From the NCBI GenBank assembly GCA_002698785.1, contig PAAG01000059.1, positions 496,001-560,000 of the forward strand: a stretch of 64,000 nt of DNA, written 5' to 3'. The DNA is from Verrucomicrobiales bacterium (GTDB taxonomy: Bacteria; Verrucomicrobiota; Verrucomicrobiia; Verrucomicrobiales; DEV007). The notes beneath the pieces are model-generated. The model was not told the DNA's origin. It did not search any database and saw only the letters and a list, made by a program, of their open reading frames with translations. Below are positions 4,389-24,728 of this stretch, in pieces. Every line of letters starts with the position of its first letter. The first letter of the stretch is position 1. A program made the position numbers and the translations under genes.

Positions 4389-4445
4389 AAATGATAAATT
4401 TTGATTTCGTTAACAAACCTCGAATAACGCCAACAATCTTTTTGT

Positions 4446-4477
4446 AATTTATAATAAATATCGTATTTTTATAAATT
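4446..4477 (+). promoter_or_regulatory. AT-rich inverted repeat abutting the prepilin start codon
   Basis: The arms AATTTATAA (4446-4454) and TTATAAATT (4469-4477) are perfect 9-base inverted repeats with a 14-base spacer, and the second arm ends directly at the ATG at 4478. No Shine-Dalgarno-like purine tract is visible before the ATG. The stretch could be promoter DNA, an operator or a weak RNA hairpin controlling translation; its AT-richness contrasts with the coding DNA around it. Confidence 0.5.
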
Positions 4478-6250
4478 ATGAATCACAAATCTCAGTCTGG
4501 CTTCTCGTTGGTCGAGGTATTGATTGCCATCGCAGTCTTGGGAGTGATCGCGGCAATCGCGATCATTTCGGTCGACGGAATGGTGACTTCCTCACGCGAA
4601 ACGAAGTTGAGTTCAGACGTTTCCTCCATCAATCGTGCGATCCTCGCATTCAAGGCAACTGGAGGAGATCTGTCTGGTGCAAATTCGGCCGACGAAGTCC
4701 TTTCCGCATTGAAAGCTACCGTCGCAAATGCTGAACAACTTCCTGGATTCAGTGGATCGAAGATCGACGAACGCCTTCTTCCTCGATACCAGACTTCGGA
4801 TGAGGCTGAGAAAGGGAACCTATGCGCCTATTGGGACGCAGATTCTCAGACTTTCCAAATTGGGTCTCCCGGCTCAGGCCAGGTCGGTATCTCCAAGTTT
4901 GTCCTCGACGCCGATGAAGGAGAAAAAGATCACGGGACTGTAGAGGTCACGAAACCGATGAAATATGCGGCCGAAGATAGCTGGATCTGGGACTACGAAG
5001 AGGTCGCCCCCACCAGCTCAGCAGGTCCGTCGTCTTTCGCCACGACTCCGGTTCCGAGCGGTAGCACGCCTCCGACGCCTGGTCCTGGCACCGGCACTCC
5101 GCCCCCAACGAGTTCCGGCGCCACTCTGGACCCACCGGTTTTCTCCATCCCGGCCGGCGGATATCCAATCAGTCAGTATAGCTTAACTCTTTCTCTTGCT
5201 GACCCAAACCCGGCAGGTGCCTCCGACATTTACTACTCCGTTGACTTCGGCAACTGGGCTCCCTACACGGGTCCTATCTCCGTCAGCCCGGACGCAACCA
5301 TCGCGGCACAGGCCGTCGCCGCTACCTCAGAATATTCGAGCAGTTCGCGGGTTGATCAGCAGTACATCGCCTTACCTGAGGACTTGCTGCCACCGACCAT
5401 CATCCCAAGTGTGACAACACTCGGGCTTTTTTCCGATACAGAGAGCTTGGTCACTATCGTTAATCCGAATTCTCCCGGCATATCCAGTCTTGAGTATCGA
5501 ATCGCGGGGGGGCCGTGGTTGCCCTACGATGTTCCGTTCTCGATCGCTCGCACGGATTATCCAGAGGGTTCGCTAATCCAAGCGAGGTCGGTTCCGACAG
5601 ATCAAAATTACATTGCCAGTACAACAACGCTTCGAACGATAGGAGTCGAAGCTATTTCGCTTACCGGTGACGGCAAAGGGACATTCTCGAATCCAATTGG
5701 AGGCAAGCACATGGCGACGAATTTAAGTTCGGGCGAATCCAATTCCTACTTCGAATGGGGCAGCATCACCTCGGGAGACAGTGGAAACACTGGCAATGGT
5801 CTCAGCAAAAGTTGGATGTCGTTTGACGCCAACCCAATTGGAGCAATTTTGCCTGGGACAGTCTTCGAGCTCGGTACGTTGTCGTACTACAACGGAGAGA
5901 TCTACACAGGTACAGGTGCTGACTCGGTAACATTGTCGATAGATCTTGGGTTTGACCTCAACGGAGTAGGATCAGGATCATCAGCAGATTTTTCTTTCAA
6001 CCTGATCAACACGCCAAACAATGCAAACGATGTTTGGAAAGACGCTGACTATGTTCAGCTCTCAAACTCATCGACAACTCAGAATATCAATTTCAATGGC
6101 ATCGAGTTTAAGCTTGAGCTTCAGTTTGGTTCAGCAACGGAAAATGGCCTTTCCTCATTCGATGAATTTCACGTGATCGAGAAACAGACAGCGAGTACAA
6201 AAGTCTTTGGTTCGCTAGTGCAAGTCGGCCCCCTGAATTTCAATCTGTAA
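4478..6250 (+). CDS. Long prepilin-like protein with chitobiase-like repeats and an anchor-type C-terminal domain
   Basis: A 590-residue protein with a type IV prepilin / type II secretion pseudopilin N-terminus: QSG|FSLVEVLIAIAV, with the prepilin peptidase site after G8, F9 at mature +1 and E13 at +5, followed by the hydrophobic helix. Residues about 30-170 resemble a pseudopilin globular part. A Pro/Thr/Gly-rich linker (about 175-215) leads to two beta-sandwich segments resembling chitobiase C-terminal-like repeats (about 219-303 and 304-392, with YYSVD and EYRIAGG cores). Residues about 393-590 resemble the choice-of-anchor K type secreted domain (FEWGS, ELGTLSYYNGEIY). Normal pseudopilins are 120-250 residues, so this is a surface-displayed fusion. 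No other pilus genes are adjacent. Confidence 0.75.
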   Translation: MNHKSQSGFSLVEVLIAIAVLGVIAAIAIISVDGMVTSSRETKLSSDVSSINRAILAFKATGGDLSGANSADEVLSALKATVANAEQLPGFSGSKIDERLLPRYQTSDEAEKGNLCAYWDADSQTFQIGSPGSGQVGISKFVLDADEGEKDHGTVEVTKPMKYAAEDSWIWDYEEVAPTSSAGPSSFATTPVPSGSTPPTPGPGTGTPPPTSSGATLDPPVFSIPAGGYPISQYSLTLSLADPNPAGASDIYYSVDFGNWAPYTGPISVSPDATIAAQAVAATSEYSSSSRVDQQYIALPEDLLPPTIIPSVTTLGLFSDTESLVTIVNPNSPGISSLEYRIAGGPWLPYDVPFSIARTDYPEGSLIQARSVPTDQNYIASTTTLRTIGVEAISLTGDGKGTFSNPIGGKHMATNLSSGESNSYFEWGSITSGDSGNTGNGLSKSWMSFDANPIGAILPGTVFELGTLSYYNGEIYTGTGADSVTLSIDLGFDLNGVGSGSSADFSFNLINTPNNANDVWKDADYVQLSNSSTTQNINFNGIEFKLELQFGSATENGLSSFDEFHVIEKQTASTKVFGSLVQVGPLNFNL

Positions 6251-6282
6251 TTCCCGGTTGTCTCATACTCAGGGAAAGCCAT

Positions 6283-6741
6283 TTGTATTGGGAAGCGCCG
6301 AGCGCTCCCGATATGCCTGAATACTGGAAACCCCACATCATCCGACTCACCGAATTTCCCGAAGCAAGGAAATCGAAAATCGATGCCTCCTTCTTTCCGC
6401 CAGTGCCAGAACAGAAACTGACGGAATGGGAGAAAAAAACAGGGTATTCGATTCCTGGCGAAATCCGCTCTTTCCTCGCTCAGTCTGATGGCCTGGAAGC
6501 CCAGGAAGGGGAACTCTGGCCAGTGCTCCCTTTCCAGAAATGGCATGTGATCGACGATCCCTGTGCTTCGTCGGTTCCGATGATCCGATTTGGCGAGTCA
6601 GGCAGACACGCATTTTTTCTATCCCTCGGCCACTCCCCCTCCATCTACAGAGAAGAGCTATTCGGACCTGGAGAGGAGTTCTTCGCATCCAGCTTTTCCT
6701 CCTATCTTGAAAAGATATTTCAGGGAAAAGCCGATAGCTGA
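6283..6741 (+). CDS. SMI1/KNR4 (SUKH) family protein
   Basis: A small soluble protein with the SUKH core: an amphipathic EKKTGYSIPGEIRSFLAQSDG stretch, then LPFQKWHV and FFLSLGHSPSIYRE. SUKH proteins include immunity proteins against polymorphic toxins, but many are solitary housekeeping proteins, and no toxin gene is next to it. A TTG at 6283 has an AGGGA tract 7 nt upstream. The first ATG is at 6313 and would place a small GC-rich hairpin (6290-6309) over its ribosome site, so the TTG start is preferred, giving 152 residues (142 from the ATG). Confidence 0.7.
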   Translation: MYWEAPSAPDMPEYWKPHIIRLTEFPEARKSKIDASFFPPVPEQKLTEWEKKTGYSIPGEIRSFLAQSDGLEAQEGELWPVLPFQKWHVIDDPCASSVPMIRFGESGRHAFFLSLGHSPSIYREELFGPGEEFFASSFSSYLEKIFQGKADS

Positions 6742-6794
6742 GCAGACAACTTCGTCCCAAATCGCGCGATCCGGGAAACTCGGCGAAAAAAGTT

Positions 6795-6810
6795 GCGCAA
6801 ACGTTTGTTT
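6795..6810 (+). promoter_or_regulatory. PurR/LacI-family-like operator
   Basis: The core CAAACGTTTG (6798-6807) is a perfect 10-base palindrome inside GCGCAAACGTTTGTTT, which agrees with the E. coli PurR consensus ACGCAAACGTTTGCGT at 13 of 16 positions. It ends 23 nt before the ATG of the ABC binding protein that starts the nucleoside/ribose operon. LacI-family regulators of nucleoside, ribose and purine genes bind such sites. No LacI-family gene is in the window, so the regulator would be encoded elsewhere. Confidence 0.6.
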
Positions 6811-6833
6811 TCAGGCATCGTCGCGGTCCAGAT

Positions 6834-7802
6834 ATGAAAAATCCCCGCTACTTTCTGACTTTTCTGGCAGCTGTCTTAGCGCTTCCTCTCTCCCTGTTTC
6901 TCACCTCCTGCAACGAGACAACTACTTCCGACAATTCTGATCCCGGCAAGCCAGAGGTTGCCTTGATCATGAAGTCTCTCGCCAACGAGTTTTTCGGAAC
7001 GATGGCAAACGGAGCAAAATCCTATCAGGCAGAACATTCTGACCAGTTCGACCTGATCGTAAACGGCATCCAGAACGAAACAGATCTCTCCCGTCAGGTA
7101 GCCTTGGTCGAGCAAATGGTAGCTCGCGGAGTGAGCGCAATTGTCATTGCCCCTGCCGATTCCAAAGCACTCGTGCCCGTACTTAAGCGTGCACAAGATC
7201 AAGGTATCGTTGTCGTAAATATCGACAACAAACTCGACGACGGTGTTCTCAAAGAAGCGGGCGCAACCATTCCATTTGTTGGACCGGACAACCGCGAAGG
7301 AGCCAAGGCCGTAGGTGACGCTCTCGCAAAAGAACTTAGCGAAGGAGCTAAAGTGGCCATTCTTGAAGGTGTCCCCACCGCGTTCAACGCACAACAGCGA
7401 CGCGCCGGTTTCGAAGATGCCATGAAAGCGGCCGGAGCCGAAGTCGTGACCGTCCAGAGCGCTCAGTGGGAAATGAGTAAAGCAAACTCCGTAACCTCAT
7501 CTATCCTCACTGCTCACCCCGAGCTGGAGGCCATTCTTGCCAGTAATGACAGCATGGCACTCGGTGCTGTGTCTGCTGTAAAAGCGGCTGGAAAAGAGGA
7601 CCAGGTGAAGATTGTAGGATTCGACAACATTTCTGCCGTCCAGGAATTGATCAAGTCTGGCCAGGTATTCGCCACCGCCGACCAACACGGAGATCAACTC
7701 GCGGTTTTTGGAATCGAGGCCGCACTGTCTGTCCTCAACGGTGAGGCGGCTCCAGAAGACAAAAAGACTCCTGTCGACCTTGTTACGGCTGACTCCATGT
7801 AA
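6834..7802 (+). CDS. Sugar (ribose-type) ABC transporter substrate-binding lipoprotein
   Basis: A 322-residue periplasmic binding protein of the RbsB/periplasmic-binding-protein-4 group. The lipobox LTSC puts the lipidated cysteine at C26. Family landmarks are the first strand VALIMKSLANEFF, QVALVEQMVARGVSAIVIAP, the hinge region FVGPDNREGAK and ILASNDSMALGAVSA. The ligand would be a pentose, a nucleoside or a similar sugar; the downstream nucleoside hydrolases suggest ribose or a nucleoside. It is the first gene of an operon running to 14014, with the permease 5 nt downstream and a PurR-like operator just upstream. Confidence 0.9.
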   Translation: MKNPRYFLTFLAAVLALPLSLFLTSCNETTTSDNSDPGKPEVALIMKSLANEFFGTMANGAKSYQAEHSDQFDLIVNGIQNETDLSRQVALVEQMVARGVSAIVIAPADSKALVPVLKRAQDQGIVVVNIDNKLDDGVLKEAGATIPFVGPDNREGAKAVGDALAKELSEGAKVAILEGVPTAFNAQQRRAGFEDAMKAAGAEVVTVQSAQWEMSKANSVTSSILTAHPELEAILASNDSMALGAVSAVKAAGKEDQVKIVGFDNISAVQELIKSGQVFATADQHGDQLAVFGIEAALSVLNGEAAPEDKKTPVDLVTADSM

Positions 7803-7807
7803 TCCGA

Positions 7808-8794
7808 ATGTCTTCGGACCCGACAACTCCTACGCGTAAGTTTCGCCTTCCCGCTCAAGCAACTGAGTCGCTTGGCCTTCTGGCAGTGCTAGCGGTTTTG
7901 ATTCTCGTATTCAGTATCGCCGGAAAGAACTTCTTTTCTTCAGCAACACTCAAACAGATTGCGAACGAGATTCCTGCTCTTGCCGTCATCTCCGTAGGAA
8001 TGACATTCGTGATCATCACAGCCGGTATCGATCTGTCTGTGGGCTCAGTGATGGCGTTTTCAGGAGCCATTCTCGGACTCGCCATGGCTGACTGGGAGTT
8101 CCCCCTGATTGCCGCCCTTCCCCTAGCCATATTCGCCGGTTTCCTCTGCGGAGCTGCGAATGGCTGGGTGTCCGTTCGATTTGCGGTACCCAGCTTCATT
8201 GTTACTCTCGGAATGTTGCAGATTGGTCGAGGCCTCGCCTATCTCTGCACCAATTCGCAGACAAAATACATTGGCTCCCCCATCGCCTGGCTCGGCACCG
8301 GTATTCCCGGAATCGGTTTGTCCTGGGCATTTGTCTTTGCGGTCCTGATTGTGATTCTTGGCCAAGTCATTCTCACAAGAACCGTATTCGGACGATATGT
8401 CCTCGTCGTCGGGGCGAACGAAGAAGCGGCCATCTATTCAGGCATCCGAACGAAGCCAGTGAAAATCGCCGTTTTCATGATCGCCGGAGCTTTGGCGGGA
8501 TTGGCATCGGCTTTTGAATCGTCCCGAATGGAGAATGTCGATCCGAATGCGGGAACAGGACTTGAACTCTCAGCCATCGCAGCCGTCGTCATCGGCGGCA
8601 CCAGTCTGATGGGCGGCAGAGGATCGGTGGTCGGCAGCTTTATCGGTGTCCTGATTATGGCCACACTGGGCGCCGGTCTCGCTCAGGTGGGAGCGTCCGA
8701 TCCTGTCAAACTCCTCATCACCGGACTCGTCATTGTTTTCGCCGTCATCATCGACGCCTGGAGAGCCGGAAAATTGAAACGATCCAAAAAATAA
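7808..8794 (+). CDS. Sugar ABC transporter permease (RbsC-type)
   Basis: A 328-residue integral membrane protein of the branched-chain/ribose permease family (BPD_transp_2) with about eight to ten hydrophobic segments. Signature stretches are MTFVIITAGIDLSVGSVMAFSG and ELSAIAAVVIGGTSLMGGRG, both typical of RbsC, XylH and AraH. It partners the lipoprotein 5 nt upstream. No ATP-binding subunit (RbsA/MglA-type, with Walker A and ABC signature) lies in the operon or elsewhere in the window, so the ATPase must come from another locus or be shared with a related transporter. The next gene begins 12 nt downstream. Confidence 0.92.
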   Translation: MSSDPTTPTRKFRLPAQATESLGLLAVLAVLILVFSIAGKNFFSSATLKQIANEIPALAVISVGMTFVIITAGIDLSVGSVMAFSGAILGLAMADWEFPLIAALPLAIFAGFLCGAANGWVSVRFAVPSFIVTLGMLQIGRGLAYLCTNSQTKYIGSPIAWLGTGIPGIGLSWAFVFAVLIVILGQVILTRTVFGRYVLVVGANEEAAIYSGIRTKPVKIAVFMIAGALAGLASAFESSRMENVDPNAGTGLELSAIAAVVIGGTSLMGGRGSVVGSFIGVLIMATLGAGLAQVGASDPVKLLITGLVIVFAVIIDAWRAGKLKRSKK

Positions 8795-10803: not shown

Positions 10804-12206
10804 TGAAGATCCGAGGGCTCATAGCGGGCGTTCTGTTGGCCCTCTTTTTCCCCGCTCAGGCAGAGCAGAAACCAAATTTTCTCATCATCGCTATTGATGA
10901 CCTGAATGATTATGTGGGCTGCCTGGGAGGTCACCCGGATACGAAAACTCCCAATATCGACAAACTCGCGAATCAGGGAATTCTCTTTACCAACGCTCAC
11001 TGCAATTCTCCGGTATGTAATTCCAGCCGCGCCTCGATCTGGACAGGACTTCGTCCCTCGACGACTGGCATCACCACTAATCACACTGGTTATTTTCGAG
11101 AAAATCCGGAGTACAAGAACCTGCATTGCTTACCTCAAACAATGCAGGCATCCGGATACTCCACCACTGCTTTTGGCAAAGTCTACCACCTCGGAGCGAA
11201 AATTGATGCATCCACGGATTGGCAACAGTTGAGAACCTACCGATACGGTCCCCTACTGAAAACTCATCTGAACTTTCACACCGGCGATCGGCTCACAGAC
11301 TGGGGTGTTCTTCCTTCGGGGGATCACCCCCGAATCGGAATGTTGCCCTCCGATCCGGAAGCCCCTAGTTTCGACGAAGATATCGCTCGAAGGACCATCG
11401 AATTCCTCGGAGATAGTCACAACGTCCCCTTCTTTCTCGGCTGCGGATTTTTCCGCCCTCACACTCCCCTCTATTCCCGAAAAAAGCACTACGATCGATT
11501 TCCCATTGAGGAGATATCTATTCCCGAAGTTCAGGAAGATGACATCGAAGACCTCCCTTACTTCAAAGCGAAACCGAGAAGAGAGCAAGACATCGAGGCA
11601 CCCGGACTTTGGAACCATCAATGGATCACTGAAAACGGAAAATGGAAAGATATCCTACAAGCCTACTTCGCTGCTATAGCATCAACGGACGATAAGGTCG
11701 GAGAGGTCATGGCAGCACTTCAACAAAGCGAGTTTTCCGAAAACACTTATGTGATTCTCTTTTCTGACCATGGATGGAATCTTGGCGAGAAAGAGCACTG
11801 GGGAAAAGCTGCCCTATGGGAGCAAACAACGCGTGTGCCTTTCATCATTTATGGCCCAGGAATCCCCGCGGGAATCCGATGCAGCAAACCGGTAGAACTT
11901 CTCAGCATCTACCCAACTGTGCTCGACTATGCGGGAATTGAGCAGCCTCACTCCCTCGAAGGAGTTTCTCTCCGTCCGCTTCTTGAAGACCCCGAGTCAG
12001 AATGGGATCATCCCGCCTTGACCACGTTCAGCGATCATCACGCCCTGCGAACAGAACGTTGGCGATACATTCGCTACGTCGACGGAAGCGAAGAACTCTA
12101 CGACCACGATACCGATCCCAACGAGTGGAGCAATCTTTCTCAAGAAAACCACCCAGAACTTCCAGTGTTGAGAAGACAATTGGAGGAGATCCTAACCAGA
12201 CCATGA
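10803..12206 (+). CDS. Secreted sulfatase, iduronate-2-sulfatase-like, with CNSSR active site
   Basis: A 467-residue sulfatase with a signal peptide (ending PAQA) that would hydrolyse a sulfate ester outside the cytoplasm. The metal ligands D32-D33 in AIDDLNDYVG and the FGTDLxx-like substrate half (FSDHGWNLGEKEHWGK) match the iduronate-2-sulfatase-like S1 group. The formylglycine cysteine is C72 in VCNSSRASIWTG; position 3 of the CxPxR motif is Ser instead of the usual Pro. The ATG at 10803 overlaps the previous stop (TGATG); an upstream in-frame extension lies wholly inside the hydrolase gene and is not used. The partner sulfatase overlaps its end by ATGA. Confidence 0.9.
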   Translation: MKIRGLIAGVLLALFFPAQAEQKPNFLIIAIDDLNDYVGCLGGHPDTKTPNIDKLANQGILFTNAHCNSPVCNSSRASIWTGLRPSTTGITTNHTGYFRENPEYKNLHCLPQTMQASGYSTTAFGKVYHLGAKIDASTDWQQLRTYRYGPLLKTHLNFHTGDRLTDWGVLPSGDHPRIGMLPSDPEAPSFDEDIARRTIEFLGDSHNVPFFLGCGFFRPHTPLYSRKKHYDRFPIEEISIPEVQEDDIEDLPYFKAKPRREQDIEAPGLWNHQWITENGKWKDILQAYFAAIASTDDKVGEVMAALQQSEFSENTYVILFSDHGWNLGEKEHWGKAALWEQTTRVPFIIYGPGIPAGIRCSKPVELLSIYPTVLDYAGIEQPHSLEGVSLRPLLEDPESEWDHPALTTFSDHHALRTERWRYIRYVDGSEELYDHDTDPNEWSNLSQENHPELPVLRRQLEEILTRP

Positions 12207-14014
12207 AACTCCCAGTCCTTTTCTTTCTGATTTTCATTTCGACCGCTCTAGCGGCAGCCAAACCAAACGTCATCGTCTTAATGACAGATGACCAGGGTTA
12301 TCCCGAACTCTCCGTTCACGGAAACCCGGTTCTCGAAACTCCCCATCTCGACCGTGTTCACAGCGAAAGCGTTCGCTTTACCGACTTCCATGTTGCGCCC
12401 ATGTGTACACCAACCCGAGGGCAACTGCTGACGGGAGTGGATGCAGCAAGAAACGGAGCGATCAACGTCAGCAGCGGTCGGACTCTTCTCCGTCCTGAAC
12501 TGCCAACCATGGCCGACATCTTCCAGGCCAACGGCTACTCCACGGGAATTTTCGGAAAATGGCACCTCGGGGACAATTACCCGTTCCGCCCTCAGGATCG
12601 CGGTTTTCAGGAAACCCTCTGGTTCCCGTCTTCTCACATCAACTCCGTTCCAGACGTTTGGGAAAACGACTACTTTGAAGACACCTACATGCGAAACGGT
12701 GAGCGAAAGCCATACAAGGGATACTGCACCGACGTCTTCTTTGAGGAGGCTTCTCAGTGGATCTCAGAAAAAGTGGAGTCTAACGAACCCTTCTTCGTCT
12801 ACCTGCCAACCAACGCTCCTCATTCCCCATATTGGGTTCCGAAGGAATACACCGATGCAATGACGGAAAAAGTCACTGAAGCGGAGAAGAAAGGCATCCT
12901 AAAAGAGCGCGCTCCCATCAAAAGAAACAATCTCATCAAGTATCTCGCGATGATCAAAAACATCGACGACAACGTCGGGAGACTCGACGAGAAACTCAAA
13001 GAGATCGGTGCATACGACGATACCATATTCGTATTCCTGACCGACAACGGGAGCACCCTAGCAGAGACATATTATCCCGCCGGAATGAGAGGCAAGAAAA
13101 CGCAACTCTGGGAAGGTGGTCACCGTGTCCCTTGTTTCATTCGCTGGCCGAATGGAAGTATCGGTGAACCTCGGAATGTGGGTGGACTTACCCAGGTGCA
13201 GGACCTTCTCCCCACTCTAAACACTCTCTGCGATCTCAAGACGGAAACCACTTTTGACGGATCCGACCTTTCCCCATCTTTGAAAAGCGAGACTCCCGTC
13301 GATCCTGAGCGAATGCTGGTGATCAATTACAGCCGCATGCCGATCGGATTCGAGTATCCCGCACCCGACTCCCCATCAATCATGACACGTGAGATGTCTG
13401 GTGTTCTCTGGAAGCGCTGGCGCTTACTTGAAGACCGTGAACTCTACGATCTGGAAAGCGACCCGCTACAGCAGAAGAATGTAATCACTGAAAACCCTGA
13501 CATCGCCACTAAAATGCGCAATCACCTCGATGAGTGGTGGAGCGAAGTGAAAGACATCGCGAACGAACCACAGCGAATCATAGTCGGAAACGAAGCAGAA
13601 AACCCCATGATGCTGACCGCATGCGAATGGCTCGACGTATTCATAGACCAGCAGAAGCAAGTCCGTCGCGCAGACCTGAAAAACGGCTGGTGGGAACTCG
13701 ACATTGAACAAGATGGAACCTACGAGTTCGAACTCCGGCGTTGGCCTCGCGAATCAGGCTTAGCGTTAACTGCGGGTTGTTCATCGACCCCAATCACAGA
13801 CGGCGAACTGGAGGAAGGTGTGGCGCTCGACATTGCGAGAGCAAGAATTCAGATCGGTAAGTTCCGCCAAATGAAGCCGGTGACTGACGGGGCTGAATCC
13901 GTCACTTTTACAGCCAAACTCTTCAAAGGCCACAAACGTCTCTACACTTGGTTTATCGATTCGAACAACCAGTCTGTCGTAGGAGCATACTATGTGTATG
14001 TCAGGAAGCTGTAA
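12203..14014 (+). CDS. Secreted arylsulfatase A-type sulfatase with C-terminal extension
   Basis: A 603-residue sulfatase with a signal peptide (ending ALAAA). Metal ligands are in MTDDQGY, and the formylglycine motif is canonical C68-T-P-T-R, followed by GKWHLGDNYPFRP, LTDNGST and RGKKTQLWEGG. Residues about 455-603 form an extra C-terminal beta-rich region after the usual sulfatase end, seen in some verrucomicrobial and planctomycete enzymes. The start at 12203 gives an ATGA overlap with the preceding sulfatase; a longer frame reaching back to 12002 lies entirely in that gene and lacks a signal peptide. It is the last gene of the 6834-14014 operon and converges on the next sulfatase. Confidence 0.9.
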   Translation: MKLPVLFFLIFISTALAAAKPNVIVLMTDDQGYPELSVHGNPVLETPHLDRVHSESVRFTDFHVAPMCTPTRGQLLTGVDAARNGAINVSSGRTLLRPELPTMADIFQANGYSTGIFGKWHLGDNYPFRPQDRGFQETLWFPSSHINSVPDVWENDYFEDTYMRNGERKPYKGYCTDVFFEEASQWISEKVESNEPFFVYLPTNAPHSPYWVPKEYTDAMTEKVTEAEKKGILKERAPIKRNNLIKYLAMIKNIDDNVGRLDEKLKEIGAYDDTIFVFLTDNGSTLAETYYPAGMRGKKTQLWEGGHRVPCFIRWPNGSIGEPRNVGGLTQVQDLLPTLNTLCDLKTETTFDGSDLSPSLKSETPVDPERMLVINYSRMPIGFEYPAPDSPSIMTREMSGVLWKRWRLLEDRELYDLESDPLQQKNVITENPDIATKMRNHLDEWWSEVKDIANEPQRIIVGNEAENPMMLTACEWLDVFIDQQKQVRRADLKNGWWELDIEQDGTYEFELRRWPRESGLALTAGCSSTPITDGELEEGVALDIARARIQIGKFRQMKPVTDGAESVTFTAKLFKGHKRLYTWFIDSNNQSVVGAYYVYVRKL

Positions 14015-14016
14015 CC

Positions 14017-15423
14017 TCAGCGTAAATCTGGACCTGCAATCGTCTTCATCTCCTCCGTGAGTCGTTCGACCAATCCCGGTTCCGCGCTGTAGAGATTTTC
14101 TGTTTCACCAAGGTCTGATGCCAGATTATACAATTGCCCATCGGGCTCTCCCTTTTCGAAGGTGTAATTGTCTGGTTTTGAAAAGCCGCCAGATCCGGGC
14201 CCGTCGATAAGTTTCCAATCTCCCGAACGAATCGTCATCAATCCTCGCCCCGACTTCATCACGATAGGTGGACGGAAAGATTCTCTCTCCCCTTTCAACG
14301 TGGACAAAAAGCTAAAGCTGTCCGGACCGGAGGTGTCTGGCAACTTTTCGCCAACGGCCTCAGCGAAAGTGGCGAAAAGATCAGTGAACGAAATTGTCTT
14401 CTTTGCTGTCTCCCCAGCTGTCACTGTGCTTGGCCACCGAACGATAAAAGGCATGCGGTGCCCTGCTTCCCAGGCGTCGGCCTTCATCCCACGCCATGGG
14501 CCACAGGAATCGTGCCCCAGGCGCTCATCGTCTTCATCATACCAAACAGGACCGTTGTCTGAGGTGAACACCACAAGCGTTTCGTCTGTCATCCCCGCTT
14601 TCTCCAAGGCTCTCAATACTTTTCCGATTTCATCATCTACCATCGTCACGAAATCGCCATAGAGCCCCGCTTCGCTTGTTCCACGAAACTCGTCACTTGG
14701 CAGCCATGGAGTGTGCGGGGACGGGTAGGCCAGGTAGAGCATGAGAGGCTTGTCAGTGTCTCGCTCTTCGATGACGCGAATCGCCTCTTCGGTAAAACGG
14801 GGAGTTACTTCCTCCAACTTCAAACTCGGAGCGATTCCCCCCTCCCTCCAGAACTCCCCCTGAATCGGTGACCACCCCTCAGTGGTGTTGGCATCGATAT
14901 GATCGGTGGGAAGTTCGATCGCCTTATTGTCACGAATATAGAAATAGGGAGGGATATCCGTGGAAGCCCGAATGCCTAAGAAGCTTTGAAAACCACAATC
15001 CACCGGCCCTCCGGGCAGCGGGTTTTCATAACCGTTCTCTTGAAATCCGAGGTGCCATTTTCCGACCATGGCTGTCTGATATCCATTGCGGGCAAACAAC
15101 TTCGCTATCGTATCCTCGTCTTCTCGAATCACGGGTTTCTCTGGCCAGACCTTTACATTCGTTCGAAATGGATAGGTCCCTGTCATCAACCCGTACCGGG
15201 AAAGATGGCACAACGGCCCAGGCGCGTGGGCATCAGTAAAACGCATACCATCAGCAGCCAGACCATCGATGTTTGGCGTTTCAATTTTCGATTCGGGATT
15301 GTAGCATCCGGGATCCCCGTAGCCCATGTCATCCACGAGGATGATGACTACGTTAGGGTTTTCCGCATACGCAATCGAAGAGCAAAAAAGAATGAAGGAG
15401 AAAATTGAAGCCCGAAAGTGCAT
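14017..15423 (-). CDS. Secreted sulfatase with unusual CHLSR active-site motif
   Basis: A 468-residue sulfatase with a signal peptide (ending AYA). Metal-binding ILVDDMGYGD, GKWHLGFQ, FTSDNGPVW and GMKADAWEAGHRMPF are all present. The presumed formylglycine cysteine C72 sits in PLCHLSRYGLMTG, so the residue two after Cys is Leu, departing from the CxPxR / CxAxR consensus read by formylglycine-generating enzyme. An AAGGAG tract lies just upstream of the ATG. The gene follows the delta-60 repeat gene by 62 nt on the same strand and may be co-transcribed with it; its 3' end faces the plus-strand operon with a 2-nt gap. Confidence 0.88.
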   Translation of the reverse strand: MHFRASIFSFILFCSSIAYAENPNVVIILVDDMGYGDPGCYNPESKIETPNIDGLAADGMRFTDAHAPGPLCHLSRYGLMTGTYPFRTNVKVWPEKPVIREDEDTIAKLFARNGYQTAMVGKWHLGFQENGYENPLPGGPVDCGFQSFLGIRASTDIPPYFYIRDNKAIELPTDHIDANTTEGWSPIQGEFWREGGIAPSLKLEEVTPRFTEEAIRVIEERDTDKPLMLYLAYPSPHTPWLPSDEFRGTSEAGLYGDFVTMVDDEIGKVLRALEKAGMTDETLVVFTSDNGPVWYDEDDERLGHDSCGPWRGMKADAWEAGHRMPFIVRWPSTVTAGETAKKTISFTDLFATFAEAVGEKLPDTSGPDSFSFLSTLKGERESFRPPIVMKSGRGLMTIRSGDWKLIDGPGSGGFSKPDNYTFEKGEPDGQLYNLASDLGETENLYSAEPGLVERLTEEMKTIAGPDLR

Positions 15424-19090: not shown

Positions 19091-19663
19091 GTGATTACCC
19101 CCGATCCCCTTCTTTCGGAACATGCCGCCTCGATCGAAAGATCCCTCGCTACTGCGGCATCAAAAATTGGGCCAACCGAATTCGGAGGTCTGATTGGAGA
19201 TCCGGGAATGTCCGTAATTCGTTCTGCCATGGACTGCTTAAAGGCGGACTCCATGTCGATCTGGCTTGCGAATAAAGACCAGACCCATCTCGTGGTCACC
19301 CACAGCGAGCCCGATAGGGACTTCATCGGTTACGAACAACCGATCACCGAGGGGCTCATCAGTCTTGCTTTTGCTTCCGAGCAGTGCCTTTGCGAGAATC
19401 AGGTATATTTGAATGCCGACCATTCCAAGAAGGCAGATCAGGCAATGAGCCAGATCACATGCGCCCTGATTGCGGCACCATTCTACATCGCCGGAAATCT
19501 GAGAGGGGTCATTAGCTGCGTGCAGTTGAAAGACTCGGTCGACGACCCGGATCCCCCAGGATTCACCGCGCGAAACATGAATCGAATACGCCGACTATCC
19601 ACCGTGATGGAACGGCTCGTTAACTATCGACTGCTAACGACTCTTCTCGATTTGGAAATATGA
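19091..19663 (+). CDS. GAF domain protein
   Basis: A 190-residue cytoplasmic protein starting with GTG. Residues about 35-185 have the GAF pattern: ADSMSIWLANKD, TEGLISLAFASEQCLCEN, ITCALIAAPFYIAGNLRGVISCVQL, and a final long helix. GAF domains bind cyclic nucleotides, tetrapyrroles or other small ligands. No enzyme domain is attached. Four cysteines (in DCLK, CLCE and ITCAL) could give metal or redox sensing, but this is conjecture. Its stop overlaps the ATG of the subtilase (ATGA at 19660-19663), so the two are made together and may act together. Confidence 0.8.
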   Translation: MITPDPLLSEHAASIERSLATAASKIGPTEFGGLIGDPGMSVIRSAMDCLKADSMSIWLANKDQTHLVVTHSEPDRDFIGYEQPITEGLISLAFASEQCLCENQVYLNADHSKKADQAMSQITCALIAAPFYIAGNLRGVISCVQLKDSVDDPDPPGFTARNMNRIRRLSTVMERLVNYRLLTTLLDLEI

Positions 19664-20454
19664 GCGAAGAGAGGTCTGCTGGTTGGCCCACCGTGGAAGA
19701 AGCACGAGAGGCCATGAAGGAGGGGAAAGGAGCCGGGATCAAGGTTGCCGTCATCGATTCCGGGGTAGACGCCACTCATCCCAGGCTGTCAAAGATGCGC
19801 CTCGTAGACTCTGTCGGGTTCGACGAGTCCGGAGGTTCGGTAAACGTCGTGGAAGGTGCAGGCACAGACAGTTATGGTCACGGCACAGCTGTAGCCGACA
19901 TCATTCACCGCCTGGCTCCCGAAGCTGAAATTGGCAGCTTTCGAGTCATCGATGCTCGAAGCCTTTCACGAACTCACCTCATTTGCGCCGGTGTCAACGA
20001 AGCGATCAAACGAGGATATCACGTTCTCAATTGCAGCTTTGGCTGCCGAGGACTCGCAAAATTCATCATGCCCTACAAAGACTGGGCAGATCGCGCCTGG
20101 TTACAGAACATACATGTTGTGGCCGCTTGCAGTAATACGGACAGCAGCGAAGCCGAATGGCCCGCTCATTTCGCTAACGTATTCGGAGTAGATCTCGCAG
20201 ATAGCGAAACAGACGATATTTACTTCAACCCCGATCATATGGTAAACTTCTCGGCACGTGGAGAAAACGTAGAAGTAGCCTGGATGGGCGGGGGTGTTCA
20301 GCTCCAAACCGGAACAAGTTTTGCTGCTCCGTTAATTTCTGCGCATATTTCCAGAATACTGTCCGTCTACCCAAACACCGCTCCCTCGATGATGCACACA
20401 ATACTCTCCAATCTCTCGGAACCCTGGCACCCAGGGCTGAGTCCGGATTGGTGA
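19660..20454 (+). CDS. Leaderless subtilisin-like (S8) serine protease
   Basis: A 264-residue S8 peptidase consisting only of the catalytic domain. The triad is D33 (VAVIDSGVDATHP), H74 (DSYGHGTAVAD) and S220 (QTGTSFAAP), with oxyanion Asn N159 (ACSNTDSS). There is no signal peptide and no I9 propeptide, unlike exported subtilases, so it should act in the cytoplasm, in the manner of intracellular subtilisins. It overlaps the GAF gene and is followed after 42 nt by a transpeptidase with a cytoplasmic N-terminal half, a possible substrate or partner. Confidence 0.87.
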   Translation: MSEERSAGWPTVEEAREAMKEGKGAGIKVAVIDSGVDATHPRLSKMRLVDSVGFDESGGSVNVVEGAGTDSYGHGTAVADIIHRLAPEAEIGSFRVIDARSLSRTHLICAGVNEAIKRGYHVLNCSFGCRGLAKFIMPYKDWADRAWLQNIHVVAACSNTDSSEAEWPAHFANVFGVDLADSETDDIYFNPDHMVNFSARGENVEVAWMGGGVQLQTGTSFAAPLISAHISRILSVYPNTAPSMMHTILSNLSEPWHPGLSPDW

Positions 20455-20496
20455 GTCTCGCTATGACTACAACAACCAAAACATACTGACTGACCC

Positions 20497-21738
20497 ATGA
20501 GTAGCCCAGCCAAGTTCCTAGGACCCGTAGACGAACTCCCAGCAGAAGGAATTGACCTTGAACCAGGAAAACAATCCGAAGTCGACTTCTGTGCGGCAAT
20601 GTTTTCCGACTCGAGTATCGGATTCGACGTCAACATCGATGGCGTAACTGTCGTTTCGAATCCTCACGAAGCTGAGGCATTCCAGCGGTTCGAAATCAAT
20701 GAAAACCGCAAAGAGGGCGAGCCATACGTTCGCTGGTCAGACGATGCCTTCGACATCCACATGCAGGGCCTCTTCCACGACAGGAATGCTTTCAACACAC
20801 TTTCTGATGCGTCCGAGCCAGAAGATTTCGTGCGCCGCTTTCTGGAGGTTCTCTCCTCTTCACTTGATGACCCGGCGATCGGTCACGACGGCCCGACCGT
20901 TCCTCTCATTCGCTGGCAACCCGGCGAAGACGGAAACTCCGCTCGCGTTCAGCTTCTGGGATTCCTTCTCGCTGAAGAAAACCAGTTCGAGCAACTCTGC
21001 AACGAACAGAATCACCAGTTCGGATTTATCTTTGAAGACGCAGAAGTCCAGGCCCATGGCCTTCGTGAAGCAGTGACAGCACTCGCACTTCTCGGCATCA
21101 CGTTAGGAGCAACCACTCAGGCAGAGGCAGGTCTATTCAAAAACCTGAAGAAGCAGCGTGAAGCTCGCGCCGAGAAGATTGCACAGATGCAAGCCGTCCA
21201 ACGGGCTCAGCAGGCCGCGATTCAGCAACAGGCACAGCAGGCTCGCAGCGGCTGGCGCGACGTGCACCAGGACGCCTATGTGAACCAGGCACTCCTCGAT
21301 GCAAACAAAGACGGTGAGAAGAAGATTGTCGTCGATATCGCCCGCCAGCGCGCCTACATGATCGTCGACGGCCAGATTGCGATCGACACGGCTGTATCCA
21401 CCGCTCGTGCGAACAAGCACACACCTCGCGGAACCTTCAAAATCACCGAGCGCATCGCACAGGGAAAAACCTCCACCATCTACGGTTGTGAGATGCCCTA
21501 CTGGCAGCGCCTCGATCAGTCTGCGATCGGCCTTCACATCGGCGACCTTCCCGGGTATCCCGCATCTGCAGGTTGCATTCGCCTTCCTTACAGCATTGCT
21601 CCGGTAATCTTTGCGAACTCCCACAGTGGCCTCGAAGTGAAGGTCGTGGATAACTGGGATCAGCAGGAACTGCATCAGGGCACGCAGCAGCAGGACATCC
21701 TCGTTGCACAGGTCGTGAAGCAGGATTCAAACTCCTGA
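20497..21738 (+). CDS. L,D-transpeptidase (YkuD) with large N-terminal cytoplasmic domain
   Basis: A 413-residue protein. Residues 1-190 are acidic, soluble and of no family I recognise. A single hydrophobic segment (about 191-208, REAVTALALLGITLGATTQAEAG) ends in a signal-peptidase-like AEA. A Gln/Ala-rich, probably helical spacer (about 213-255) leads to a YkuD domain (about 275-395) with catalytic H347 and the motif S357-A-G-C360-I-R. YkuD enzymes make 3-3 peptidoglycan crosslinks or attach proteins. The layout implies a cytoplasmic N-terminal half and a periplasmic enzyme. No start codon with a credible n-region precedes the internal segment, so the fusion appears real. Confidence 0.85.
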   Translation: MSSPAKFLGPVDELPAEGIDLEPGKQSEVDFCAAMFSDSSIGFDVNIDGVTVVSNPHEAEAFQRFEINENRKEGEPYVRWSDDAFDIHMQGLFHDRNAFNTLSDASEPEDFVRRFLEVLSSSLDDPAIGHDGPTVPLIRWQPGEDGNSARVQLLGFLLAEENQFEQLCNEQNHQFGFIFEDAEVQAHGLREAVTALALLGITLGATTQAEAGLFKNLKKQREARAEKIAQMQAVQRAQQAAIQQQAQQARSGWRDVHQDAYVNQALLDANKDGEKKIVVDIARQRAYMIVDGQIAIDTAVSTARANKHTPRGTFKITERIAQGKTSTIYGCEMPYWQRLDQSAIGLHIGDLPGYPASAGCIRLPYSIAPVIFANSHSGLEVKVVDNWDQQELHQGTQQQDILVAQVVKQDSNS

Positions 21739-21770: not shown

Positions 21771-23213
21771 GTGAGACAGACTTTCCATCTAGCTCTCGCT
21801 GTGCCCGCTTTCATTGGGCTGGCTGTCGCCGTTTTTCTGACGGTAAAATCGACAAAATCCGACGTCTCGGAAGAGCCTTTCTCAGTTCTGGCAGGAACGT
21901 CCTGGTCAGATATCTTCTCGAAGCTTCCGGCACAAATGCCGGGAAGTTACGATGACGGTGAAGAGATCGACGCCACGCGCGCAGATGACCTCTCCCCGGT
22001 TCAGGCGAAGAAATTCGCGATCAACAATGCATTCATATCCTCCTGCGCCCTACTGGTGTTTGCAGGGCTCATCGGAATTGCCCTGATGAGCATGGCGAAA
22101 TCGTCAGGCGAACCACTTGCATACCCAGCACTCAGAACCACCGCGATGGGAGGAATTGCCATCGTGACCTTTCTCCTTTGGGGATTCTACTTGGCTTTCC
22201 CGGGAGATTTCAATGGATTCGTCCCTTTTCCCACATTCTCACTTCCCGGCGGTATCGATTCCGTCGAATATGGAATGAGCGGCATGAGCGAGTGGACAGA
22301 TCTATTCTACATCGCCACCTATGCAGCCCTTTTCGGAGCACTTCTCGTAAGCTTTTGCAGTTCGGGCATGAAGGCAACTCCGGCTTTTCTCGTCGCCATA
22401 CCGATCACTACCTTCCTACTCCCTTTGGTGATCTCGTGGAAATGGGGTGCGGGCTGGATCGACCAACTGGCGAACAATTTTGATTTCGCGGGCGCAGCAC
22501 TCATCCATTGGCATCTCGGCTCGGTTGCCCTGCTTATCGGCGGAATTCTTTCCATGTTTCTGCGCCAACCGGAAAATTCTGCGCTACTGCAAAAACTCTC
22601 CTCAAAATCACCCACCCATCTTGCTCTCTACGGGTTAGGGATGCTTTTGTATTTTCTCGCAATACTGGGAATGAATGCGGGATCAGTGCTCGCTGCAACT
22701 CCCTCTCTGGTGGCCTGCGTAATTCAGGCAACGATCGCTGGGGCGGCGACCTCGACTGTCCTCGCCGTCGTCTGGTGGGCGGTATTCCATACTCGCAATA
22801 TCATCGAATTCATTGGTATCGGTCTCATGTCCGGCGCAGTCTCCGTTTCTTGCGCAGCCGACAGCATGAGTCTCTCCGATGCCATCGCTATGGGGGTTCT
22901 CTGCGGATTCATTGTCCCCGGAGTCGTGGTCGCAATGGATAAAGTAAAATGGCCAGATCCGCTTGCCGTAGGACCAGTTCACGGCATAGCCGGCGCTATC
23001 TCAGTTCTTGGTGCCGCCTTCGTCTCTATCGAGGACATGGCAGTAACGGCAATCGGACAAATCGTTCTCATCATTGCCACTCCGTTGCTTTCCTTGATGG
23101 CAGCGTTTTTCGTTTTGGTTATCGCCGGAACCTCGAAAAATCTCTTTGTTCGAGATCCCGATTCACAACCAAACCGAACAATACCTCCAAGCCTACCTCC
23201 TCGAGCTTCCTGA
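21771..23213 (+). CDS. Divergent ammonium transporter-like (Amt family) membrane protein
   Basis: A 480-residue protein starting with GTG, with about twelve hydrophobic segments. Amt hallmarks are recognisable but altered: DFAGAALIHWHLGS in place of the usual DFAGG-VVH (pore H168 equivalent retained), and DPLAVGPVHGIAGAISVLG carrying the H318 equivalent. The first helices are poorly conserved and are preceded by a signal-like segment and a soluble acidic stretch of about 60 residues. No GlnK/PII gene is adjacent. It lies 32 nt after the transpeptidase gene. It may transport ammonium or methylammonium, or sense them; its 3' end overlaps the opposite sulfatase by 21 nt. Confidence 0.75.
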   Translation: MRQTFHLALAVPAFIGLAVAVFLTVKSTKSDVSEEPFSVLAGTSWSDIFSKLPAQMPGSYDDGEEIDATRADDLSPVQAKKFAINNAFISSCALLVFAGLIGIALMSMAKSSGEPLAYPALRTTAMGGIAIVTFLLWGFYLAFPGDFNGFVPFPTFSLPGGIDSVEYGMSGMSEWTDLFYIATYAALFGALLVSFCSSGMKATPAFLVAIPITTFLLPLVISWKWGAGWIDQLANNFDFAGAALIHWHLGSVALLIGGILSMFLRQPENSALLQKLSSKSPTHLALYGLGMLLYFLAILGMNAGSVLAATPSLVACVIQATIAGAATSTVLAVVWWAVFHTRNIIEFIGIGLMSGAVSVSCAADSMSLSDAIAMGVLCGFIVPGVVVAMDKVKWPDPLAVGPVHGIAGAISVLGAAFVSIEDMAVTAIGQIVLIIATPLLSLMAAFFVLVIAGTSKNLFVRDPDSQPNRTIPPSLPPRAS

Positions 23214-24728
23214 TTCGATAATCTCAGCGAGGCGTCCCTTCATCTTCTCTGCGATCTCCGGGTGGCTCTCGATCAGGTTTTCCTCCTCACCGGGATCCTG
23301 GTCCAGGTTGAAAAGTTGAAACTGGGGAACGGGCGTGTTTTCCAACAACTTCTCTACGACCAGATTCCGGGTTTTTCCGGAATCATGACGCTGCAGTTTC
23401 CAGTTCCCGGAACGAAACCCGTAATTCCCTCCCTTACCATTGTCCTGTTGGACAAACTCTTCTCGCCCTTTCGCATTTTCTTTCCCAAGAAGAGCACCTG
23501 ACACATCCGCACTATCAAGTGCTGCATCAGCCGGAATTTCCGCTCCGGTAAGTGAAGCAAGACTCGAATAGAGATCGATCGTCGTGACCACCTCGTCCGA
23601 AACTGCCGGATCAATTGTGCCCTTCCAGGTCGCGATAAAAGGAGTCCGAGTTCCCCCTTCGTAAACGCTGTATTTCCCTCCTCGAAATGGACCCGCAGCG
23701 TGATGCTCCCCGACTTTCTCCAGAGCTCCATCAGCATACCCATCATCCATGACTGGACCGTTGTCCGAGCAGAACACAATCAGGGTGTTCTCCGAAAGTT
23801 CCAATCGATCAAGAGTCTTGGATAATTCCCCTACACACCAATCCAACTGGACAATCGAATCCGTCCGGTATCCGTGAGGCGTCGTGCCCTGAAACCTTTC
23901 GTGAGGCATCCGCGGCACATGACAATCGTGCGAAGCAAAGAAGAGGAAGAACGGCTCATCTTTGTTCTCTTCAATCCACTTCATCGACTGTTCAACCCAC
24001 TTATCGGCGAGATCTTCATCGCGAAAGCGTGCCTCTTCACCGCCAGTGTAAAACCCGATTCGACTAATACCATTGTGGATGGTCGCATTGTGACCGTGGG
24101 TCCAATCCATCTTCAATGTGTCGCGATGACTGATTCCAGTGGGATGATCCTCACTCGGCTTCTTCTTGCCGACCCATAGTGGATCATTCGGATCCAGATT
24201 GAGAACACGATGATCCTCCACATAAACCTGGGGCACTCGGTCATTAGTAGTAGGGAGAAGAAAACAATGATCGAAACCAATTTCCAGAGGGCCAGGCTTC
24301 AAATCGCCATTCCAATCAGGACCATCCTCGCCGCCAAGACCTAAGTGCCATTTGCCGATTACCGCTGTCTTATATCCGACCGATTGAAACATCGAAGCAA
24401 TGGTAGGAGTCCCGCCGGGAATGATTGCCGGGCTACTCGGAGGAGCGATTCCTGTTCCCTCTTTACGAAAGGCATAATTACCGGTCAGGAAAGAATATCG
24501 CGTGGGAGTACATGTCGAAGCCGAGCAATATCCACTCGTGAAACGAATCCCCTGCTCCGCGAGCTTATCGATGTTGGGAGTTTCATAGGTCGTCGCACCA
24601 TAACAGGAGACATCGCCATAGCCCAAGTCATCCGCCATGATGACAATCACATTCGGCTTTACTGGCTCTTCGGCCGAGAGTGGAGCCACGCCCAAGGCGA
24701 GAAGAAAGAAAAGGGGGATCTTTTTCAT
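23193..24728 (-). CDS. Secreted arylsulfatase
   Basis: A 511-residue sulfatase with a signal peptide (ending LSAE). Metal-binding MADDLGYGDVSCYG, the canonical formylglycine motif C73-T-P-T-R, GKWHLGLGGEDGPDW, FCSDNGPVMDDGY and GGKYSVYEGGTRTPF are all present, typical of planctomycete/verrucomicrobial N-acetylgalactosamine-6-sulfatase-like enzymes. It is the last gene of a minus-strand series beginning at 28865; the unknown secreted protein gene ends 38 nt upstream. A GGGAG tract lies just before the ATG. Confidence 0.92.
   Translation of the reverse strand: MKKIPLFFLLALGVAPLSAEEPVKPNVIVIMADDLGYGDVSCYGATTYETPNIDKLAEQGIRFTSGYCSASTCTPTRYSFLTGNYAFRKEGTGIAPPSSPAIIPGGTPTIASMFQSVGYKTAVIGKWHLGLGGEDGPDWNGDLKPGPLEIGFDHCFLLPTTNDRVPQVYVEDHRVLNLDPNDPLWVGKKKPSEDHPTGISHRDTLKMDWTHGHNATIHNGISRIGFYTGGEEARFRDEDLADKWVEQSMKWIEENKDEPFFLFFASHDCHVPRMPHERFQGTTPHGYRTDSIVQLDWCVGELSKTLDRLELSENTLIVFCSDNGPVMDDGYADGALEKVGEHHAAGPFRGGKYSVYEGGTRTPFIATWKGTIDPAVSDEVVTTIDLYSSLASLTGAEIPADAALDSADVSGALLGKENAKGREEFVQQDNGKGGNYGFRSGNWKLQRHDSGKTRNLVVEKLLENTPVPQFQLFNLDQDPGEEENLIESHPEIAEKMKGRLAEIIESGSSRR

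Follow-up and report, generated by a model that had tools for sequence, protein, structure and literature searches.

The stretch of DNA considered here (64,000 nucleotides of contig PAAG01000059.1 from a Verrucomicrobiales bacterium, assembly GCA_002698785.1; hereafter, the window) contains a cassette of three genes, which encode a GAF-domain protein, a subtilisin-like protease (subtilase) and an L,D-transpeptidase (Ldt). A preliminary description of the window had suggested that the GAF protein gates the protease, which in turn cleaves the N-terminal part of the Ldt and so controls cross-linking of the cell wall. All three genes lie where it had placed them, the reading frame of the subtilase overlapping that of the GAF protein (Table 1).

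Table 1. Positions in the window of the cassette genes and of the residues, domains and predicted processing elements of their products (arrows mark predicted cuts)
Feature	Position	Strand	Basis or remark
GAF-domain protein, 190 aa, putative sensor for, or partner to, the protease	19091..19663	+	GTG start
S8 subtilase, 264 aa, without leader or propeptide	19660..20454	+	start overlaps GAF stop, ATGA at 19660–19663
Catalytic Asp33 of the subtilase	19756..19758	+	invariant in alignments
Catalytic His74 of the subtilase	19879..19881	+	invariant in alignments
Glu166 of the E-W-P motif of the subtilase	20155..20157	+	S1 pocket position; aligns with Gly166 in subtilisin BPN'
Catalytic Ser220 of the subtilase	20317..20319	+	invariant in alignments
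Ldt precursor, 413 aa, putative client	20497..21738	+	42 bp past the subtilase
Ldt N-terminal domain, residues 1–172, mixed alpha/beta	20497..21012	+	predicted structure; family and fold searches
Site E183-V-Q-A-H187↓G188, predicted subtilase recognition and cleavage site	21043..21060	+	conservation; matrix derived from the mini proteins
Buried signal peptide G188–A211, with A211↓G212 as predicted cut for signal peptidase I	21058..21129	+	hydropathy, alignment, A-x-A
YkuD catalytic domain, residues 275–373	21319..21615	+	profile match; H347 at 21535, C360 at 21574

The subtilase, its GAF partner and the Ldt precursor

The subtilase matched the Pfam profile of peptidase family S8 (PF00082) with 85.5 bits (cut-off 21.8; E 5e-24) over residues 24–250 of 264, and D33, H74, N159 and S220 were all in place; by profile and D/H/S triad it belongs to this family, its activity being predicted. 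The S8 domain takes up nearly the whole chain and leaves no space for either a signal peptide or a propeptide, and the protein is, by sequence, predicted to be cytoplasmic, as the preliminary description had held. When a 16-member profile was compared with the subtilisins in the PDB, the motif E-W-P aligned with V-G-Y-P of subtilisin BPN', which places the glutamate at position 166 of the S1 pocket. Glu-Trp-Pro was present in 95 of 98 distinct family members; the 98 loci were collected from 40 stretches of the order sample (see below) and the best 80 of 314 relatives in a contig collection, duplicates being removed. An acidic residue at this position favours a basic P1 residue, as is known from subtilisin engineering and from the kexins: G166D contributes to the P1 Arg preference of engineered subtilisin BPN', and the kexin/furin-type subtilases, which work in the eukaryotic secretory pathway, possess a propeptide and a P domain and cleave at multibasic sites, select basic P1 residues via an acidic S1 pocket. 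Owing to the glutamate at position 166, a basic P1 residue is therefore predicted for the clients of the window subtilase. The three exceptions (L050, L069 and L070, together group D) have glycine at position 166 and lack a known client. The group D loci belong to the genus of the window and adjoin a FIST-like gene; a GAF gene was seen in L050 and L069.

The GAF protein of the window scored 20.3 bits against GAF_2 (Pfam cut-off 28.6; GAF families PF13185/PF01590), and an orthologue aligned with it (L058) exceeded the cut-off with 37.7 bits. The chance that it serves as the sensor of the protease is about even. Cys101 and Asn103, within the motif Q-x-x-C-E-N, were invariant in all 22 aligned GAF proteins and might form a redox or ligand site.

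The Ldt matched the YkuD profile (PF03734) with 49.7 bits (cut-off 23.4; E 7e-13), and H347, C360 and R362 were invariant in all 18 aligned proteins. Its N-terminal part, which the preliminary description had treated as one cytoplasmic domain and as the target of the protease, is still a plausible client region but has to be divided: AlphaFold2 predicted a folded domain (residues ∼1–170; when modelled in isolation, predicted local distance difference test score, pLDDT, 80.7), followed by a linker (residues 171–257) of low confidence and predicted to be disordered (pLDDT < 50). No relative is claimed for the folded domain. In Pfam, the window member had no match, and of 24 members just one gave a hit, a stray one (E 0.033); sequence comparison with the PDB gave no significant match (best E 0.06), and structural comparison gave at best Hsp33 with Foldseek (E 0.13, probability 0.10) and a Z of 2.3 with VIA.

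The linker contains a hydrophobic segment preceded directly by a short conserved element, the site in Table 1, both lying inside the stretch predicted to be disordered. The segment (residues 188–211, GLREAVTALALLGITLGATTQAEA↓G) consists of an n-region (GLRE), a hydrophobic core and the sequence AEA↓G, and thus agrees, in hydropathy and pattern, with a Sec signal peptide. With its A-x-A, it appears signal-peptide-like, and a stable membrane anchor is not obvious. Of 17 YkuD proteins encoded in the genome, inspected by eye for hydropathy, 16 have such a segment at the N terminus and the window Ldt alone has it internally. One of these paralogues (L228, on G000:C44), an ordinary secreted YkuD Ldt, is 49% identical over window residues 207–392 (E 2e-65) and represents the same mature enzyme; its N-terminal signal peptide ends with VEA↓GLF, which aligned with AEA↓GLF of the window protein, but it has neither the N-domain nor the site. 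The arrangement in the linker was compared in 35 Ldts: A-x-A follows the site in 34, lysine or arginine occurs within five residues after the site in 33, and the distance from P1' to the second alanine is 24 residues in 25.

Linkage of the trio and distribution of the GAF-subtilase pair

Conservation was assessed in 141 genomes of the order and in a phylum-wide sample of 387 genomes. In the order, the subtilase query had a match at E ≤ 0.001 in 108 genomes and at E ≤ 1e-45 in 51; the latter cut, by which a subtilase is called strong here, was set after a gap between 7e-48 and 1e-33 had been seen. The Ldt N-domain was found in 26 of the order genomes, every one of which also had a subtilase, and all 26 were among the 51 with a strong one. 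In 23 of them, the N-domain gene lies directly 3' of the subtilase gene (elsewhere in G024, in G108, which has two copies, and in G121). Within the genus of the window, all 15 genomes with an orthologous subtilase (64–72% identical, or the window itself) encoded the N-domain, versus none of the seven genomes without one. Three families of the order have kept the trio, the genes around it differing; since in L058, L059 and L067, which belong to another family, it adjoins other genes than in the genus of the window, its linkage is not merely an inherited neighbourhood. The linkage is far above chance, and GAF protein, subtilase and Ldt almost certainly form a functional unit, as expected from the preliminary description. 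Across the phylum, the N-domain (E ≤ 1e-8) was found in only 2 of 387 genomes, both with subtilase, and the subtilase protein query (E ≤ 1e-38) matched six.

The pair of GAF protein and subtilase extends beyond this unit. In 96 of the 98 loci, the subtilase gene has a GAF gene no farther than 3 kb away (long open reading frames in L052 and L068 had been considered as GAF-subtilase fusions but contain the two domains in different frames). The third gene encodes an Ldt with N-domain in 27 loci, a sigma factor resembling those of extracytoplasmic function (ECF) in 27, and a one-span protein of ∼300 residues, here called Bp, in 21; none of these was present in 23. In addition, a protein of ∼73 residues, here called mini and often encoded after the ECF sigma gene, was found in 26 of the 27 sigma loci, all 21 Bp loci, 8 of the 23 others and none of the 27 Ldt loci. 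Mini is present in 41 of the 141 order genomes. Where the subtilase is strong, mini or the Ldt N-domain occurs in all genomes but one (50 of 51, the exception being G103), compared with only one of the 90 other genomes; in this one (G092, with mini) the contig breaks off within the GAF gene that follows, so that the assembly probably lacks the subtilase. In loci such as L199, L200, L203, L205 and L206, mini and the adjoining sigma gene share one strand, with GAF and subtilase on the opposite one. The second half of mini resembles, by eye only, small anti-sigma helices, and in the sigma loci mini may be the regulated client. The trio stands as a unit, but the module is not a system for Ldt control as such, which the preliminary description had made of it: the pair also accompanies mini, ECF sigma factors, and zinc-ribbon-like proteins with the same site.

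Two observations concern the other companions of the pair. Bp (L101:5897–6775 and relatives) has a single membrane span; its N-terminal domain gave a weak PqqD-related match (TIGR04248, E 0.0099), and its C-terminus is helical and conserved. In L147 (positions 4399–7843), a PapB-like radical S-adenosylmethionine (SAM)/SPASM enzyme (E 8e-33) and a 68-residue peptide are encoded after the pair, which hints at a link to the maturation of ribosomally synthesized and post-translationally modified peptides (RiPPs).

A putative processing site common to unrelated proteins

The site in the Ldt linker follows the pattern E/D-V/I/A-x-A/G-H/R-G, and E183 and G188 were invariant in all 18 proteins of the first alignment. 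Each of the 66 distinct mini proteins has a corresponding site, which separates an N-terminal stretch from the remainder of the chain; successive positions were occupied by E/D (62 of 66), V (58), any residue, G (62) and R/H (65). A matrix built from these 66 mini sites only (a score of 7.2 serving as threshold in control scans) ranked the linker site first among the ∼400 segments of the protein in 30 of the 35 Ldts; in the remaining five it came second. Valine at P4, glycine or alanine at P2 and arginine or histidine at P1 suit the general subsites of subtilases. Ldts encoded apart from any pair keep the site (L191, HEAEGRG; L192, SEVEGRG; L193, ADVEGRG; L194, PDVEGHG), as does the Ldt of L232, which does not adjoin a pair either; in all five, a hydrophobic segment lies behind the site. 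Moreover, EVxGR occurs shortly before the first CxxC of zinc-ribbon-like open reading frames, two of which are found in L144/L231 and three in L232. These small proteins (76–129 residues; L232:460–1412 and L144:2403–3083), encoded beside a divergent Ldt and containing CPHCG, CAWCG or CPWCG, are a possible further client family. Mini was also sought in 10 genomes where none adjoins the pair; six had one, with the site present.

Two further candidates for the site were dismissed. Of the 98 subtilases themselves, 21 reach the threshold of the matrix, mostly with the catalytic D-x-x-G-H-G block and otherwise with other internal stretches; these hits are not taken as a sign of autocleavage. None of 22 Bp sequences scored 7.2 or higher, and Bp was therefore rejected as a site-bearing client; a looser element, L-[AS]-[AG]-[RK], was seen by eye past its membrane segment.

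Proposed processing and competing explanations

From the gene set, its conservation, the site, the buried signal peptide and the S1 residue, all of which can be read from the sequences, we infer a cut in the linker, its requirement for export, and its control by the GAF protein. In this model, GAF protein and subtilase would constitute a cytoplasmic, sequence-specific processing protease of Verrucomicrobiota, whose clients would be marked by the site [E/D]-[V/I/A]-x-[G/A]-[R/H]. The Ldt would be made with its folded 170-residue N-domain and linker; the subtilase would cut after His187, the N-domain would fall away, and residues 188–211 would then act as an ordinary N-terminal Sec signal peptide. 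The Ldt thus freed would be exported, trimmed by signal peptidase I and able to cross-link peptidoglycan, the GAF protein presumably being the sensor or activity switch. That a cut at H187↓G188 occurs is probable; that it removes the N-domain, unmasks the signal peptide and gates export is put at roughly 60%. The extension of this idea to a dispersed proteolytic regulon, in which GAF-controlled cytoplasmic subtilases of Verrucomicrobiota read one tag, [D/E]-V-x-[G/A]-[R/H], ahead of very different cargo, the cut licensing Ldt export through a cryptic Sec signal peptide, switching transcription in the case of the sigma-linked mini and freeing a small metal-binding domain in that of the zinc-ribbon proteins, is tentative and given somewhat less than even odds. 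The specific predicted cut, the acidic S1 residue that matches it and the predicted unmasking of an internal signal peptide all go beyond the preliminary description.

Several observations weigh against the model. A score as high as that of the window site was reached by 30 of 265 unrelated open reading frames of 350–480 residues and by 63 of 700 shuffled Ldts (0 of 27 sigma factors and 3 of 96 GAF proteins did so); because such a short site is not rare in itself, the argument for it is its fixed position, its conservation and its spread over unrelated proteins. The failure of Bp to score belongs here, too, as does the fact that no client was found in G103, G483, G485 and G487. Among the Ldts, L192 lacks A-x-A, and two of the 35 have no lysine or arginine within five residues after the site. 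Finally, residues 188–211 could insert as a signal anchor without a prior cut.

This last point leads to an unlikely alternative, in which the Ldt would be a bitopic (type II) membrane protein or leave the cell unaided, its N-domain remaining in the cytoplasm and the hydrophobic segment inserting by itself; the subtilase would do no more than trim or shed the N-domain, for regulation or turnover. Cytoplasmic N-terminal domains ahead of a signal anchor are common, and the segment, with a 13-residue mean hydropathy of 2.08, is hydrophobic enough to insert. However, it is short, A-x-A is conserved behind it, and it aligned with the cleavable signal peptide of L228; furthermore, the site directly precedes the n-region, so that a cut there yields a signal peptide of normal length. 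The spacing likewise bears on the idea that the cut inactivates, i.e., that the protease destroys the precursor or strands it in the cytoplasm, leading to less cross-linking. Many cytoplasmic proteases do lower the levels of their clients, but inactivation would not need the 24 residues between site and A-x-A end that 25 of the 35 Ldts have and that correspond to the length of a signal peptide; this is the least probable of the explanations considered.

The remaining two alternatives concern the role of the site itself. Should E-V-x-G/A-R/H serve to dock the GAF-subtilase pair or another partner, with the cut elsewhere or none at all, a short element would be conserved just as well, and P5 Glu/Asp is indeed conserved about as well as P1; yet, aliphatic P4, small P2 and basic P1 fit the subsites of a subtilase with Glu166, as well as the published register of ElxP, in which the cut comes directly behind position −1 (PMC10885120); docking is held to be distinctly unlikely. 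Slightly less probable again is that the pair belongs to a RiPP-like pathway with mini as the precursor, the Ldt having borrowed the site. The score of the subtilase against the QhpE model (85 bits), the PqqD-related hint in Bp (E 0.0099) and the PapB-like radical SAM gene that adjoins a single pair (L147) point in this direction; mini, however, has no Cys-rich or repeated core, and a radical SAM gene was noticed at L147 only, among neighbours not all of which were family-searched.

Two described proteases come close to what is proposed here. ElxP, the cytoplasmic LanP-type S8 leader peptidase of epilancin 15x, recognizes the motif (D/E-5)(L/V-4)XX(Q-1) (PMC10885120). The window subtilase is also leaderless, its putative clients carry a matching site, and the register (P5 D/E, P4 V) is the same, but P1 is Arg/His instead of Gln, the client of ElxP is a lantibiotic precursor, and a GAF partner is not mentioned in the part of the ElxP account consulted. 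QhpE, a subtilisin-like protease from the biogenesis of quinohemoprotein amine dehydrogenase, is encoded with its client and strips it of an N-terminal leader while still in the cytoplasm, ahead of translocation to the periplasm (PMC7876137). The window subtilase scored 85.4 bits against the QhpE model of NCBIfam (NF049966), below the cut-off of 165 bits; the QhpE leader comprises 28 residues, export is via an ABC transporter, and GAF is not mentioned in the part of that account consulted (PMC7876137). Neither QhpC nor the radical SAM protein QhpD was recognized among the cassette genes and their immediate neighbours, the genes of the window farther away not having been family-searched. Mycosins (TIGR03921; 92.2 bits versus a cut-off of 278.75) and the cyanobactin proteases PatA/PatG (TIGR03895; 28.5 bits versus 421) are S8 proteases dedicated to particular clients, too, but their clients are different, and the window subtilase, when set against the mycosins, is without a signal peptide. 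By the curated cut-offs, it is not QhpE, mycosin or PatA. The pair would resemble the leader-cutting cytoplasmic subtilases QhpE and ElxP in its mode of action, with whole enzymes and regulators, not modified peptides, as putative clients.

In the literature searched, most subscription papers being outside its reach, nothing was found on a GAF-subtilase-Ldt unit or on signal peptides unmasked by a protease; the GAF partner, an Ldt with a buried signal peptide and a site across unrelated proteins are undescribed as far as these searches extend. To our knowledge, no system has been described that makes export through Sec depend on a cytoplasmic protease uncovering a signal peptide inside a protein. 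If the proposed processing is true, bacteria can retain an enzyme destined for export in the cytoplasm, behind a domain whose removal on a signal sets the enzyme free; control would then be exerted after translation but before Sec. A further gain would be a testable sequence rule for finding the clients of an undescribed protease family, and possibly a new route to the control of peptidoglycan cross-linking and of ECF sigma factors in Verrucomicrobiota.

The genes flanking the cassette were considered as additional members. Upstream of the GAF gene, P0004 (18566–18946) encodes a small coiled-coil-like protein without a Pfam family above cut-off; it was rejected as a fourth member, since tblastn matched it in only four (L039, L042, L045 and L046) of the 16 group-A loci that were compared. 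Downstream, a divergent ammonium-transporter-like gene (21771–23213; 97 bits versus a cut-off of 343), which has an extra N-terminal stretch, was rejected as well, as among 40 compared loci of the order it was present, apart from the window, in L039 only. Three sulfatase-like proteins, recognized by eye, are encoded around the cassette (12002–15423 and 23193–24728), and this family recurs near related loci.

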